Shown in pieces: positions 29,335 to 35,307 of a DNA stretch of 64,000 nt. Positions within the stretch are counted from its first letter, which is position 1. Each line of letters starts with the position of its first letter. The notes below the pieces were generated by a model. It was given only the letters and a program-made list of their open reading frames with translations. It was not told the origin of the DNA and made no database searches. The position numbers and the translations under genes were made by a program. The DNA lies in assembly GCF_000238255.3 (NCBI RefSeq), contig NZ_CP011039.1, forward strand, positions 1,785,001 through 1,849,000, read 5' to 3'. The DNA comes from Pseudoalteromonas spongiae UST010723-006. GTDB lineage: Bacteria; Pseudomonadota; Gammaproteobacteria; Enterobacterales; Alteromonadaceae.

Positions 29335-30087
29335 TTATTTTAGCAACCGATAATCTTTTTCTTCACCTGGCCAGCCTAAGCGCTTAAATAGTTCAAGCTC
29401 CGGCTCGCCTATCGAGGCCTCAATATGAATTGTCTGCTTACTAAAGGGATGCTCAAAAGTGAGTTCTTTAGCAAATAGCATCAAGCGATTTAAACCAAAC
29501 TCTTGCTGGAAAAAATGATTCTGCTTGTTATCACCATAATTTGCATCATTCAAAATAGGATGATTAATATGGTTTAAATGGCGCCTAATTTGGTGCTTAC
29601 GGCCAGTTTTTGGTAAACACTCTACCAGTGAATAACGCACCGTTGGAAACTTACCAAGTGGTTTATTGATCACAGCTTGGTGTAAACACTTAAAGTCAGT
29701 TTGTGCTTCTTGCGCTGGTTTTTCTTTATCGGCAAACTTATCGGCAATCTTATCGTGTTTATATTTGAGTGCATGATCCACATGTAACGACTCTGGCGCA
29801 AACCCACGTGTTAGGGCTAAGTACCGCTTGCTGATCTTATGCTCTGAAAAGAGTGAACTTGCGGTACGCGCTACATCACTACTTAAACCAAATAACAACA
29901 CACCAGAAGTAGGCCTGTCTAACCGATGAAGCGGAAACACATGTTGATCAATTTGGTCGCGTAGCATCTGCATCGCAAAATGAGTTTCACGTTTATCTAA
30001 AAAAGAGCGATGCACTAATAAACCCGACGGTTTATCAATCGCAATAAAGTGTTCATCACGATATAAAATCGGTAATTCACCAAACAT
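29335..30087 (-). CDS. truC: tRNA pseudouridine(65) synthase TruC
   Basis: RluA-family pseudouridine synthase of 250 residues. The catalytic Asp57 is in HRLDRPTSGVLLF, with YLALTRGF and the conserved GRKHQIRRHL in the second half. TruC modifies uridine 65 of tRNA-Ile and tRNA-Asp. There is no S4 domain, as expected for TruC. Its ATG overlaps the yqcC stop codon by one base (TAATG). Confidence 0.93.
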   Translation of the reverse strand: MFGELPILYRDEHFIAIDKPSGLLVHRSFLDKRETHFAMQMLRDQIDQHVFPLHRLDRPTSGVLLFGLSSDVARTASSLFSEHKISKRYLALTRGFAPESLHVDHALKYKHDKIADKFADKEKPAQEAQTDFKCLHQAVINKPLGKFPTVRYSLVECLPKTGRKHQIRRHLNHINHPILNDANYGDNKQNHFFQQEFGLNRLMLFAKELTFEHPFSKQTIHIEASIGEPELELFKRLGWPGEEKDYRLLK

Positions 30088-30377
30088 TAATTAAGCGCCT
30101 TATCTAATTTTTTAATCACATCAATCACTTTTGGATAATCGCCTAACATTTGCTCTGCCATCGGCGTGATATTGGCACCTTTTGGCAACGGTTGATTTGC
30201 GGCAACGAGTTGCTTCATTTTGATAATAAATACAAATTGTAACCATTGTTCAAACCGCATTGTGTCATAACAAAATGGCGCAGTAGATGCGAATGCTGCA
30301 GTATTTGGTGGTGTGTTTGACCACAGTTGATGTACTTTTAACGTGTCACTTAATTCGTCGAGCAGTTGAATGATCAT
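30087..30377 (-). CDS. yqcC: YqcC family protein (DUF446)
   Basis: 96 residues, all-helical, of the YqcC family. The pattern LWSNTPPNTAAFASTAPFCYDT followed by MRFEQWLQFVFI is typical. Function unknown; it always accompanies truC and is translationally coupled to it here. In E. coli csrB lies beyond yqcC toward syd, which matches the RNA gene at 31829-32221 here. Confidence 0.92.
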   Translation of the reverse strand: MIIQLLDELSDTLKVHQLWSNTPPNTAAFASTAPFCYDTMRFEQWLQFVFIIKMKQLVAANQPLPKGANITPMAEQMLGDYPKVIDVIKKLDKALN

Positions 30378-30472: not shown

Positions 30473-31495
30473 ATGCAACACACTATCTCAAGCCTTGGCG
30501 AACTTCTTGATAATGCAGGCACAACATGGCGCGTTTTTGACATGGGTCGCCGCATTCAAAAAATTGATAAGCAAACATTTTCGCAAATAGAAAATAATCA
30601 AATCCCCTATCCATTTCCATTGCAACAACATGCGTTTTTAGCGATTCAATTTTGGAATAGCCACGAGACAGAAACGCCCTACATTTGGTTTTTGAAAATG
30701 CCGCTCGACGAACAAAGTAAACTGGTTCAAGCAAGCCGCAATCATTTTGCATCTATGGTACTCGAGGCACTTGGAAATCAACTTACGGGTAATGATGAAG
30801 CGCAAAGCCAGCTCGATAATAACCCGTATGTATTTACACCAAACGCAAATAAACTCGCGGCGTTTAATGCCATTATTAAAAAAGAACTAAAACAAAGCGC
30901 ATCAACCTACTATGAACATGTAGAACTTTATTTTAGCGGTAAGCTTGGTTTTAATGAATGGCAGCAACTTGGCTTGCAAGGCATCGCTGATTTTGCAATG
31001 CGCTTAACAGATACCAATCAAAACAACTTAATAAAAGCATTAGATCAGTTACCACAGCCCGTTGTTAATTCATTGGCTGCAACCCTTGAACACAGTGCAA
31101 TTTCGGTTGCTTTAACTGAAGCGTTGTACGTTCAGTTTGAAAACGCCGTTAAACAACAAAACAGTGAAAATATCATTAACTACTTACGCATGATGTCGAA
31201 TACTTCTGCCACTGGTATTTTAGAACGTGCTGTCGCAATATTAGTAACGACACCAACCTTGCTTAACCTTGATACTGTGTTAACGCTCACAGGACGCTGC
31301 TGGCATGTGCTCGAAAATCATGTTGTCGCTCTTATGGATTACCTTGCATCAGAGCACGACCAAGATGTTTTTGGTGGCATTTTTGCTGATCTTGTTGCAA
31401 TTCCAAGTTTACGCCCTCATATGTTAGCAATGATCCGAATGCAAAATAGAAGCGAAGCCCTTTCGCGTGCAATTGGAAAACTATTTCAACAATAA
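30473..31495 (+). CDS. DUF3549 family protein
   Basis: 340 residues, cytoplasmic and largely helical, matching DUF3549. It opens with ISSLGELLDNAGTTWRVFDMGRRI and has PYIWFLKMPLDEQ near residue 65. No catalytic motif seen; function unknown. It is usually followed by DUF3301, as here (15 nt gap), and belongs to the yqcC/truC/syd neighbourhood in marine gammaproteobacteria. Divergent from yqcC. Confidence 0.85.
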   Translation: MQHTISSLGELLDNAGTTWRVFDMGRRIQKIDKQTFSQIENNQIPYPFPLQQHAFLAIQFWNSHETETPYIWFLKMPLDEQSKLVQASRNHFASMVLEALGNQLTGNDEAQSQLDNNPYVFTPNANKLAAFNAIIKKELKQSASTYYEHVELYFSGKLGFNEWQQLGLQGIADFAMRLTDTNQNNLIKALDQLPQPVVNSLAATLEHSAISVALTEALYVQFENAVKQQNSENIINYLRMMSNTSATGILERAVAILVTTPTLLNLDTVLTLTGRCWHVLENHVVALMDYLASEHDQDVFGGIFADLVAIPSLRPHMLAMIRMQNRSEALSRAIGKLFQQ

Positions 31496-31510
31496 TTATT
31501 AGGTAACGTT

Positions 31511-31813
31511 ATGGCGTCAATTTGGCTTATTCTGGCGGTTGCTACACTGATCTACTTATTTTGGCTTGACCGACAAGCTGCTGAAAGTGCAAGAGAATAT
31601 GCCAATCGCCATAGCGAAAAACTGAATGTACAGTTTCTTAGTATTGCGTGTACCAAAAAACGTATCGGTATTTTAAAAAATGGAAAACCAGGGCTTAAAT
31701 CAACTTTTGTTTGGGAGTTTTCGAGTAATGGCGAAGACAGTTACAATGGCGTCGTTAATTTAGAAAATGACAAAGTAATTAGTGTTGATGTGCCGCCACA
31801 TAAAATAAACTAA
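31511..31813 (+). CDS. DUF3301 membrane-anchored protein
   Basis: 100 residues. One N-terminal membrane helix (IWLILAVATLIYLFWLD, residues 4-20) is followed by a soluble domain with a single Cys and a conserved WEFSSNGEDSYNGVV segment. Family of unknown function, in operon with DUF3549. No terminator on the plus strand: the hairpin just downstream belongs to the opposing csrB-like RNA and lacks a T-run in this direction. Confidence 0.83.
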   Translation: MASIWLILAVATLIYLFWLDRQAAESAREYANRHSEKLNVQFLSIACTKKRIGILKNGKPGLKSTFVWEFSSNGEDSYNGVVNLENDKVISVDVPPHKIN

Positions 31814-31828
31814 TTTTTAGTACGTCAG

Positions 31829-31860
31829 AAAAAGCTAAGGCGCAACATAATGCCGCGCCT
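31829..31860 (-). terminator. Rho-independent terminator of the CsrB-type RNA
   Basis: On the minus strand AGGCGCGGCA-TTA-TGTTGCGCCT forms ten pairs (two G-U), followed by TAGCTTTTT. It is unidirectional because the other side has no T-run. Confidence 0.88.
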
Positions 31861-32221
31861 CAAATTCGAAAAAACATCCATTTTTCCTTGGTTATCCATC
31901 ACCATTTATGCTTTCGCACATCCATTTCTCATCCATTGAAGGAAACCAATCCATGCTTCCCTGGCTATCCTTGTCCCAATTCCTACCCTCATCCTGAGGT
32001 GTCCTCTTTGCTCCTAGCCTTTCCCTGTATTTTGGTTTTTCCTAAACCATCCTTTAAACGCTCCTGCGTTTATCCCTTTTGCATCTTTGCAAAACACTAA
32101 CTCATTTAGTGCACCGCCATCCCTGCATCCTTGTCCTTTGTTCCCTTGATACGCCCTGTATCTATGCCTAAATTCCATTCCTTGGCATAAAACATACTTC
32201 CTGTATGTTTGCTTCCTTGTT
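31829..32221 (-). ncRNA. csrB: CsrB-type CsrA-sequestering small RNA
   Basis: Read on the minus strand, about 393 nt contain 26 GGA triplets, against roughly six expected by chance. Many sit in loops of perfect small hairpins: AAACATAC-AGGAA-GTATGTTT (32190-32210), TAAACGC-AGGA-GCGTTTA (32055-32072), TGGTTT-AGGAA-AAACCA (32033-32049), CCTCA-GGA-TGAGG (31987-31999) and GATAC-AGGGC-GTATC (32148-32162). Other hairpins (32077-32094, 32095-32111) and single-stranded AAGGA/AGGGA linkers alternate. This is the architecture of CsrB/CsrC/RsmZ RNAs, which titrate the translational regulator CsrA. A strong intrinsic terminator and a promoter fit the ends. The neighbourhood (yqcC, truC, syd) is where E. 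coli has csrB. The 5' end is estimated from the -10. Confidence 0.9.
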
Positions 32222-32228
32222 GATGTTA

Positions 32229-32258
32229 ATAATAGTGAGAATTTGTGACTAATGTAAT
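32229..32258 (-). promoter_or_regulatory. Promoter of the CsrB-type RNA
   Basis: On the minus strand ATTACA, 18-bp spacer, TATTAT, predicting a start near 32221. The -35 matches 4 of 6, which suits an activator-dependent promoter. TGTAATACA (32312-32320), about 75-90 nt upstream, resembles half of a GacA/UvrY box (TGTAAG-N6-CTTACA) but is not a full match. Confidence 0.5.
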
Positions 32259-32330
32259 GAGGTAAATTGATTCTAAATTTATTAATCTTTTATACATATT
32301 ATAATTTTTCTTGTATTACATAGAGTTAAA

Positions 32331-32358
32331 TGAAAATAAGTGCTATTTACAGCACTTA
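32331..32358 (-). terminator. Candidate terminator of the GNAT gene
   Basis: On the minus strand TAAGTGCT-GTAAAT-AGCACTTA followed by TTTTCATTT. Eight-bp perfect stem with an interrupted T-run. A second hairpin CTCACA/TGTGAG (32371-32386) lies between it and the gene. Confidence 0.6.
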
Positions 32359-32419
32359 AAGCATCACAAACTCACATCATTGTGAGATATTTCCTACACA
32401 CTATTTGTCAGAAAGCGAC

Positions 32420-33073
32420 TTAGCCCTTTTGCTTAACAAACAGTTTTCCAGACACTTTGGTAAATGTAAGTTCAGTTTCACCTTGGTAACCTTCACTTAT
32501 AAATAAATCGTGAAAACGTTCCCGTGTAATGAACACCGCACTTGCTTGCGCCCCATCAGATTTAACAACGTCATCAATTGCCCTTAATAAGTAGCGGCCG
32601 ATACCTTGGTGTTGCACATGAGGATCGACTGCAAATAAGCTAATAAAGCAGCAATCAGTGAAGCTTGCGACGGCTTGGTGGATTGCTTTTTCTTTTTCGA
32701 TAAGCTGATTGGTAGATAATACTCCGGTGTTGAGCATTAATTTTAAGCGCCAGTGCCATACTCTGTCCGCAGCTAAAGCATCATTGGCTTTTTGCACACA
32801 GCTAACCGCGAGCAAATTGTCACCGGCAAATACGCCGATAATATGCTGATGGCTTTGCCAAAAGCTAGCTAGCTCTTCACGTATTAATAAGCGGAGTTTT
32901 TTCTCGTAAGCACCTTTATTTGCTTTATCGTATCCCAAGATTTGCTGAAATAACTCATCATCGTGATACGCTTGATACAATACACTTGCTGCGATTTTGC
33001 AGTCTTCTGCGGTTAAATAGCTGGCTTTTAATTCGGTATCTAACGCTGGGGTTGCTAATGTTTCAGCGGCCAT
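32420..33073 (-). CDS. GNAT-family N-acetyltransferase
   Basis: 217 residues with a GNAT fold. The acetyl-CoA binding segment is LFAVDPHVQHQGIGRYLLRAID (the Q/RxxGxG/A loop as QHQGIG, near residue 160), with the preceding beta strand CCFISLF. The N-terminal 100 residues are helical and less typical (LIREELASFWQSHQHIIGVFAGDNLLAVSCV). The substrate is unknown. Convergent with nothing; it lies just upstream of the csrB-like RNA promoter, separated by a candidate terminator. Confidence 0.8.
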   Translation of the reverse strand: MAAETLATPALDTELKASYLTAEDCKIAASVLYQAYHDDELFQQILGYDKANKGAYEKKLRLLIREELASFWQSHQHIIGVFAGDNLLAVSCVQKANDALAADRVWHWRLKLMLNTGVLSTNQLIEKEKAIHQAVASFTDCCFISLFAVDPHVQHQGIGRYLLRAIDDVVKSDGAQASAVFITRERFHDLFISEGYQGETELTFTKVSGKLFVKQKG

Positions 33074-34697: not shown

Positions 34698-35246
34698 TTA
34701 TTGTGCGTAGTAGAGACCAGAGCAGTCAGCTAAAAATGCTTCCATTGAGTCTGCTAATTTATGATGTGGTTCTTTGCCAAGGTATTCAAGCCAGATACTT
34801 GCATCCTCTAATTTCATTACAAGTAGCAAATCATCTTCTTCACAGGTTGCAAAAAATACCGTATCAGCCTGTTTTAATCGGCGCTTCATAAGCACATGGC
34901 CGGTTATATTTTGCTGCAACCGATCAAAGTCTTGTTCGCTCCAAGCTTGCAACAAACAAAGATTATGTTCTTGATAGCTGGCAAATAAATTATCGCTGTA
35001 AAAGCTGCCAAAATAGGCCTGAAGTGCCGCTGGAAATTGTGTTTCAAGGGCTTTTTCTAACGCCTGCATATTGCCGTTTTGCGCCACTTGCTGCCAAGCA
35101 ACCGAATCATTTTCGACACTATTTGGTATTTCACATGGACTTGGCCAATCGCTATCGTGAAACACGCGTGGTGCCTGCCCTGTTTTTTGCTGTGCTAATT
35201 GCGTAATTTCCGTGTACACGCGTTGTAAGTTTTCGCTAATTGACAT
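34698..35246 (-). CDS. syd: SecY-interacting protein Syd
   Basis: 182 residues, close to the 181 of E. coli Syd, with the family ends [12 protein letters not shown] at the N-terminus and [18 protein letters not shown] at the C-terminus. Syd binds SecY on the cytoplasmic side of the inner membrane and monitors translocon integrity. I use ATG 35246 after AAAGG; the TTG at 35261 would add five residues with no better ribosome site. Divergent from queF, as in enterics. Confidence 0.93.
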
Positions 35247-35307
35247 ACTGCCTTTGCCCAATTTATTCGTTACAATAGTTAATTATTTTACCGATTTTAA
35301 TCTGATT

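Follow-up and report, generated by a model that had tools for sequence, protein, structure and literature searches.

A probable csrB orthologue between yqcC and syd in Pseudoalteromonas spongiae, and its repeat-expanded relatives in the genus

Regulatory RNAs of the Csr type have been described in several relatives of the bacterium considered here, and CsrB of E. coli is the classic example. E. coli CsrB (NC_000913.3, 2924156-2924524) carries 22 GGA motifs, the first at +9, and its far-upstream UvrY box, TGTGAGAGATCTCTTACA, begins 191 nt upstream of the RNA start and is reported to be centred at -183/-182 (PMC4682653). Shewanella oneidensis has two neighbouring csrB genes, CsrB1 and CsrB2, both with UvrY boxes, whose expression reportedly drops more than 100-fold when barA or uvrY is mutated (PMC3171408). 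In the marine relative Alteromonas, three short Csr-type RNAs, Aln1a-c, lie in one 404-bp intergenic region; we liken them to the present RNA by the description in PMC5864184, whose authors call them analogues of CsrB-C. Closest of all are the three Csr RNAs of Pseudoalteromonas fuliginea BSW20308: Pf1, with 21 GGAs according to the 2023 paper (PMC9927453) and 25 according to the 2025 paper (PMC11882849), Pf2 with 21 GGAs and Pf3 with 9. In E. coli, Pf1 acted against CsrA, and EMSA showed binding of CsrA by Pf2 and Pf3 (PMC9927453; PMC11882849). Outside the genus, the authors found nothing that matched Pf1 or Pf2 significantly, and a passage of the same paper suggests that both emerged de novo (PMC11882849).

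Here, we analyse a stretch of 64,000 nt from the chromosome of P. spongiae (hereafter the window) and describe an unannotated RNA of about 393 nt on the minus strand at 31829-32221 that very probably acts as a sponge for the global regulator CsrA. We hold with high confidence that it is the csrB orthologue of this Pseudoalteromonas and the counterpart of P. fuliginea Pf1. Since Pf1 is a published counterpart within the genus, the window RNA is less novel than the preliminary description of this DNA supposed; RNAs of this kind are already known, and the interest lies in the question of their origin and in repeat-expanded relatives rather than in the window copy itself.

The minus strand of 31829-32221 contains 26 GGA motifs in 393 nt, exactly as many as the preliminary description had counted, and 14 of them are AGGA. 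The plus strand of the same segment has a single GGA, and the maximum elsewhere in the window is 7 per 393 nt on either strand. In agreement with the claim that hairpins present AGGA or GGA in their loops, the minimum-energy fold places 10 of the 26 motifs in hairpin loops, and the mean unpaired probability is 0.84 for the guanines of GGA motifs versus 0.29 for other guanines. This difference of 0.55 compares with 0.14 ± 0.08 in dinucleotide shuffles and was reached by none of 60. The folding energy is likewise low, with a z-score of -6.3 against 100 dinucleotide shuffles (none as good) and of -7.7 in a second run with 60. We aligned the window with strains P1-9 and G4 and genome G087 and counted identity relative to the window: GGA columns are 96% identical (75/78) in both G4 and G087, compared with 80% (251/315) and 78% (245/315), respectively, for all other columns (Fisher P = 2e-4 and 6e-5), and 23 of the 26 GGAs are kept whole in each. 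Among the four sequences we find two clear compensatory base pairs, one of them in a GGA-presenting hairpin, and many helices of the window fold are broken in G4 or G087; because of this mixture and the small number of close homologues, we do not rely on covariation.

The RNA ends at an intrinsic terminator (31829-31863, minus strand), in which a hairpin at 31863-31835 with 13 pairs (G-U allowed), six of them G-C, is followed by the T run that had been noted before; the T run and most of the 3' arm are invariant across 10 aligned homologues. The start is set from the first GGA and from a promoter-like pair at 32229-32258 (minus strand), with a -35 of ATTACA, a -10 of TATTAT, a spacer of 18 and 9 of 12 matches. 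The preliminary description had seen a fitting promoter here. Such a pair is indeed present and its -10 part is kept in strain G4, but the motif alone is no evidence, because 1.6 kb hold six such sites against 4.4 ± 1.8 in shuffles. Farther upstream, at 32381-32398 (32398-32381 as read on the minus strand), lies TGTAGGAAATATCTCACA, which by sequence match is a putative GacA/UvrY binding box. It resembles the UvrY/GacA box TGTAAGN6CTTACA, in the form given in the text of PMC3171408, and also the E. coli csrB box quoted above from PMC4682653. From the start of the putative box it is 182 nt to the first GGA and about 177 nt to the assumed start of the RNA, compared with 191 nt to the RNA start in E. 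coli csrB. Two features of the E. coli system, the many GGAs and the far-upstream box, recur here.

The position of the RNA tells the same story. In E. coli K-12, truC, yqcC, csrB and syd follow one another in that order on one strand. In the window, a truC-like pseudouridine synthase gene (29335-30087, minus; PF00849, RNA pseudouridylate synthase), yqcC (30087-30377, minus; PF04287, DUF446), the RNA and syd (34698-35261, minus; PF07348) keep this order, all on one strand, and the RNA thus lies between yqcC and syd on the strand of both. The neighbourhood is therefore that of E. coli csrB, as the preliminary description had recognized, with YqcC and Syd identified by Pfam and with additional genes interspersed, which is a difference from E. 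coli: a DUF3549 gene (30473-31495, plus; PF12069), a DUF3301 gene convergent with the RNA (31511-31813, plus; PF11743), a GNAT acetyltransferase gene upstream of the RNA and on its strand (32420-33073, minus; PF00583), DUF2789, DUF2310 and one unnamed gene. By Pfam, the complete order is TruC-like, YqcC, DUF3549, DUF3301, the RNA, GNAT, DUF2789, DUF2310 and Syd. The DUF3549 protein is closest to those of Pseudoalteromonas sp. P1-9 (97%), P. sp. G4 (84%) and nine other Pseudoalteromonas (53%). The genome comprises 4.75 Mb in two contigs.

How well do sequence and family models recognize this RNA? By BLAST, it shares with E. coli csrB only pieces of at most 21 nt (best E 0.005), and near-full-length nucleotide matches occur in 4 of 108 genus genomes, the source genome included. 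The Infernal search with Rfam models that the preliminary description had proposed as a check gave CsrB (RF00018) as the best match in 31500-32500 when an E-value threshold was used (31826-32089, 40.2 bits, E = 2e-9); this match is significant, though below the gathering score of 71, and by the Rfam rule the window RNA is for that reason not filed as a member of RF00018. At gathering thresholds, Rfam reports two tRNAs in the window and nothing else, and a whole-genome RF00018 search with stricter filters gave no match anywhere in the source genome, the window RNA included. Whole-genome searches in the genus gave RF00018 matches with E <= 1 in 8 of 36 genomes and none over the cut-off; the model evidently covers Pseudoalteromonas poorly. 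When 12 related or sibling loci were scanned together, six matched CsrB at E <= 0.1, one of them over the cut-off. At the homologous place, the CsrB model scores 59.2 bits in G015 and 48.4 bits in G087, and it scores 21.8-32.3 bits in L139, L127 and L187. In G055, a genome of another family, a match next to DUF3301 reaches 90 bits and exceeds the gathering score; the window Syd has no match in the G055 stretch. Neither the CsrB nor the CsrC model matches L183, L188, L189, L104 or L121 among the 12 loci.

Because nucleotide BLAST is nearly blind here, we sought homologues by synteny through DUF3301, which was found in all 107 genus genomes searched and, in a sample of 197 genomes across the order, in 127. 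We inspected 80 regions of the genus: 60 were selected from the 107 so as to be well spread, and another 20 were added, of which 11 belong to clades with long RNAs. Of the 80 regions, 76 carry 12 or more GGAs in a run on the strand opposite DUF3301, and none does so on the DUF3301 strand. The loci of the 11 named Pseudoalteromonas listed above (P1-9, G4 and nine others) all have 21-26 GGAs per 350 nt at this place. Two of the four regions without a run, L094 (1030 bases) and L095 (2312 bases), are short stretches that reach a contig end, and L094 has 14 GGAs per 300 nt despite its shortness; the stretches of the other two, L093 (G064) and L101 (G028), contain neither a GGA cluster nor a GNAT match, perhaps because of an insertion at the locus. 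Outside the genus, 19 of 40 regions have at least 14 GGAs per 300 nt on the RNA strand; in 17 the cluster lies no more than 2.8 kb from the DUF3301 end and in two it lies further off. The remaining 21 have no such cluster on that strand.

The upstream box accompanies these clusters. With at most three mismatches, it is found upstream of 104 of 112 GGA clusters within and outside the genus, compared with 320 of 1760 shuffled upstream stretches. The eight clusters without a box at this threshold belong to L109 (two clusters) and to L094, L134, L145, L146, L156 and L157 (one each), and three of them, those of L094 and L109, are cut by contig ends. A strict box pattern, defined after inspecting the boxes from the three-mismatch search, occurs upstream of all 77 genus runs with full upstream sequence, the window included, and only once elsewhere in 502,674 nt of RNA-strand sequence from the same regions. 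In the genus, the distance from the start of the box to the first GGA is mostly 179-184 or 212-215 nt, with extremes of 134 and 222 nt. An IHF site with 0-1 mismatch between box and promoter, present in 51 of 77 runs versus 299 of 770 shuffles, is suggestive only. The combination of synteny and box thus finds csrB where Rfam does poorly, as the 76 of 80 genus regions compare with none of 36 genomes over the RF00018 cut-off.

Several other readings of the locus have to be weighed. The C/T-rich composition of the plus strand could be the codon bias of a translated protein gene, as the frame at 31888-32100 is open over 70 codons and also open in P1-9 (99% identical). However, this 70-aa frame, antisense to the RNA, starts with TTG, has no Pfam match and is interrupted by stops in strain G4, where the gap region is 77% identical, and the conservation follows the GGA motifs of the opposite strand; we reject the protein-coding reading, which retains a negligible probability, and agree with the preliminary description that the frame is a false one. 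The RNA might also lack a promoter of its own and arise solely by processing from the 3' end of the GNAT mRNA, given that the GNAT gene is codirectional and ends 199 nt upstream, and that the promoter motif of the RNA is weak. Such processing is hard to reconcile with a terminator-like hairpin at 32358-32337 that lies between the GNAT gene and the RNA, with the activator-type box upstream of all 77 genus runs, and with L075, L105 and L113, which have a GGA cluster and a box (2-3 mismatches) though their stretches have no GNAT match, and we regard it as extremely unlikely.

Did the RNA descend from the csrB of other Gammaproteobacteria, or was a Csr-type RNA born de novo in Pseudoalteromonas, as proposed in PMC11882849? 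The latter would be in line with the reported lack of significant matches to Pf1 and Pf2 outside the genus, with the fast divergence seen in our own BLAST searches within the genus and against E. coli csrB, and with the sub-threshold Rfam score. On the other hand, gene order, strand and far-upstream box are those of E. coli csrB. Moreover, the 17 near clusters outside the genus, on the RNA strand beside DUF3301, come from 9 of 13 regions of other genera of the family and from 8 of 27 regions of four other families, and the G055 cluster, from one of those other families, exceeds the CsrB gathering score. Most non-genus clusters also have a box; the larger cluster of L145, the nearer one of L134 and the larger one of L157 have none at three mismatches or fewer. 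Synteny and box argue against the published de novo origin, which we consider very unlikely, and for Pf1 being a csrB that has diverged beyond the reach of nucleotide search. On this reading, a marine genus that is widely studied has its main Csr RNA at the locus where other Gammaproteobacteria have csrB.

The CsrB-type interpretation of the preliminary description is thus upheld by the significant, sub-threshold CsrB match, the exposed and conserved GGA array, the terminator, the box, the E. coli synteny, the recurrence of the run in the genus and the presence of both csrA and uvrY, all features read from the DNA itself. That description had made its reading depend on the presence of csrA, for which the genome has one match, a 63-aa ORF. 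The UvrY orthologue shares 69% identity with E. coli K-12 UvrY (E 2e-94; next match E 2e-24). If the locus works as in the known Csr pathway, BarA/UvrY-type signalling would phosphorylate UvrY, which would bind the box at 32381-32398 and turn on the promoter at about 32229-32258, and transcription would end at the intrinsic terminator. The 26 GGA sites, presented in short hairpin loops and linkers, would then bind many CsrA dimers, and the RNA would in this way draw CsrA off its mRNA targets. Transcription, dependence on UvrY, CsrA binding and the effect on targets are all expected here by analogy with that pathway.

The window RNA and Pf1 are alike in that both are GGA-rich, intergenic RNAs of the first chromosome of a Pseudoalteromonas and have a GacA box (PMC9927453; PMC11882849). 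Exact copies of the 18-nt box published for Pf1 are present in 3 of 108 genus genomes (G031, G069 and G105). In G031 and G069, it lies at the place between DUF3301 and GNAT, on the RNA strand, and the RNA behind it has 29 GGAs in G031 and 25 in G069, the latter being also the Pf1 count of the 2025 paper. In G105 (C1:62454-62471, L189), the exact box is reversed and lies before a different GGA-rich RNA, on a contig other than that of DUF3301. Taken together, the window RNA is most probably the orthologue of Pf1, and we infer that Pf1 also occupies the csrB place in BSW20308 itself.

The source genome appears to contain counterparts of the other two P. fuliginea RNAs as well. A second Csr-type RNA, Pf2-like (L182, about C1:2269899-2270201, plus strand), has 18 GGAs, a terminator-like end, a GacA-type box at C1:2269708 and a weak CsrC match (20.9 bits, E 0.03). 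A third, Pf3-like and AAT-rich (L183, about C1:2779523-2779794, minus strand), has 9 GGAs and a terminator-like end, gives no match to the CsrB clan in Rfam, and is flanked by ORFs that read by eye as cytochrome c and methyltransferase. In each of the two, a GacA-type box precedes the first GGA by 196-198 nt. The Pf3-like stretch is matched, at least in part, in all 107 genus genomes; for the Pf2-like stretch, the match covers most of its length in 4 of 107 genomes, the source among them, and is limited to short pieces in another 13. A loose box pattern gave 67 sites in the genome versus 53 for a reversed control pattern, and four sites besides that of the window were picked by eye from among those listed of the 67; two of these picked sites, C1:3124928 (at most 7 GGAs per 300 nt) and C1:1061372 (at most 5), have no GGA cluster. 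As judged from sequence, the three Csr RNAs fit the published P. fuliginea set, and further ones may exist.

Within the genus, the number of GGAs per csrB RNA ranges from 16 to 80. A run with at least 45 GGAs occurs in 7 of the 60 spread-chosen regions and in 18 of the 80 overall, 11 of the 18 having been picked for long RNAs. These 18 long RNAs have 51-80 GGAs and measure 705-1098 nt from the first GGA to the terminator; each has one strict box and contains a tandem array with 3.8-9.3 copies of a GGA-rich unit of 79-89 nt. The giant csrB loci are L104, L110, L117-L119, L121, L074 and L191-L201. In L110, L119 and L121, a crude finder places an extra terminator-like hairpin behind the array, about 80 nt before the last one, which counts against a single long RNA there. 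In the 79-nt unit of G062, AGGA lies in three apparent short hairpins, two of which form when the unit is folded alone, and in the whole G062 RNA 23 of 69 GGAs are in hairpin loops. The arrays are not simply an assembly error, because the copies differ by point changes and because some assemblies with 2-3 contigs (G062, G078, G094, G100 and G130) contain arrays of 6.5-8.5 copies. Near relatives differ in copy number: G095 and G100, with 98.6% identity across a promoter stretch of 220 nt, have 5.6 and 8.5 copies, respectively; the number in G095 may reflect collapse, since this is a draft of about 210 contigs.

Other arrays in the genus have periods of 108-110 nt (L078, L098 and L100) or 124 nt (L088 and L089), and arrays outside the genus have periods of 78 nt (L130) and 72 nt (L164); these several periods suggest that expansion recurs. 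No tandem array was found in most RNAs of the genus, that of the window included. A literature search limited to open-licence papers found no report of a tandem-repeat csrB, and candidate papers on tandem repeats or variable numbers, among them PMC8383071, were set aside, as the accessible parts of their text concern other things. Is the csrB locus then a minisatellite? We see an even chance that whole GGA-hairpin modules of 79-124 nt are gained and lost there, and that the copy number sets the capacity to titrate CsrA. If so, this behaviour would help to explain the near absence of sequence similarity among Csr RNAs, the dosage of CsrA would be a quickly evolvable and perhaps strain-variable trait, and the window RNA would be an unexpanded allele. 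The expanded alleles raise the question of whether bacteria tune a global regulator via the number of binding modules on its sponge.

Copies of csrB also vary as whole genes. Some loci contain tandem duplicates, each with its own box: three Pseudoalteromonas (L123, L124 and L125; G086, G085 and G008) have two copies, and four genomes from another family (L139, L162, L163 and L164) have three. The Shewanella CsrB1/CsrB2 pair, as described in PMC3171408, resembles these duplicated loci, whereas the window has a single copy. Finally, csrB and DUF3301 lie between tens of bases and 3-11 kb apart, or no csrB was found in the stretch (L091/G066, L122/G131, L101/G028 and L093/G064), and the junction behind csrB resembles a hot spot for insertions.
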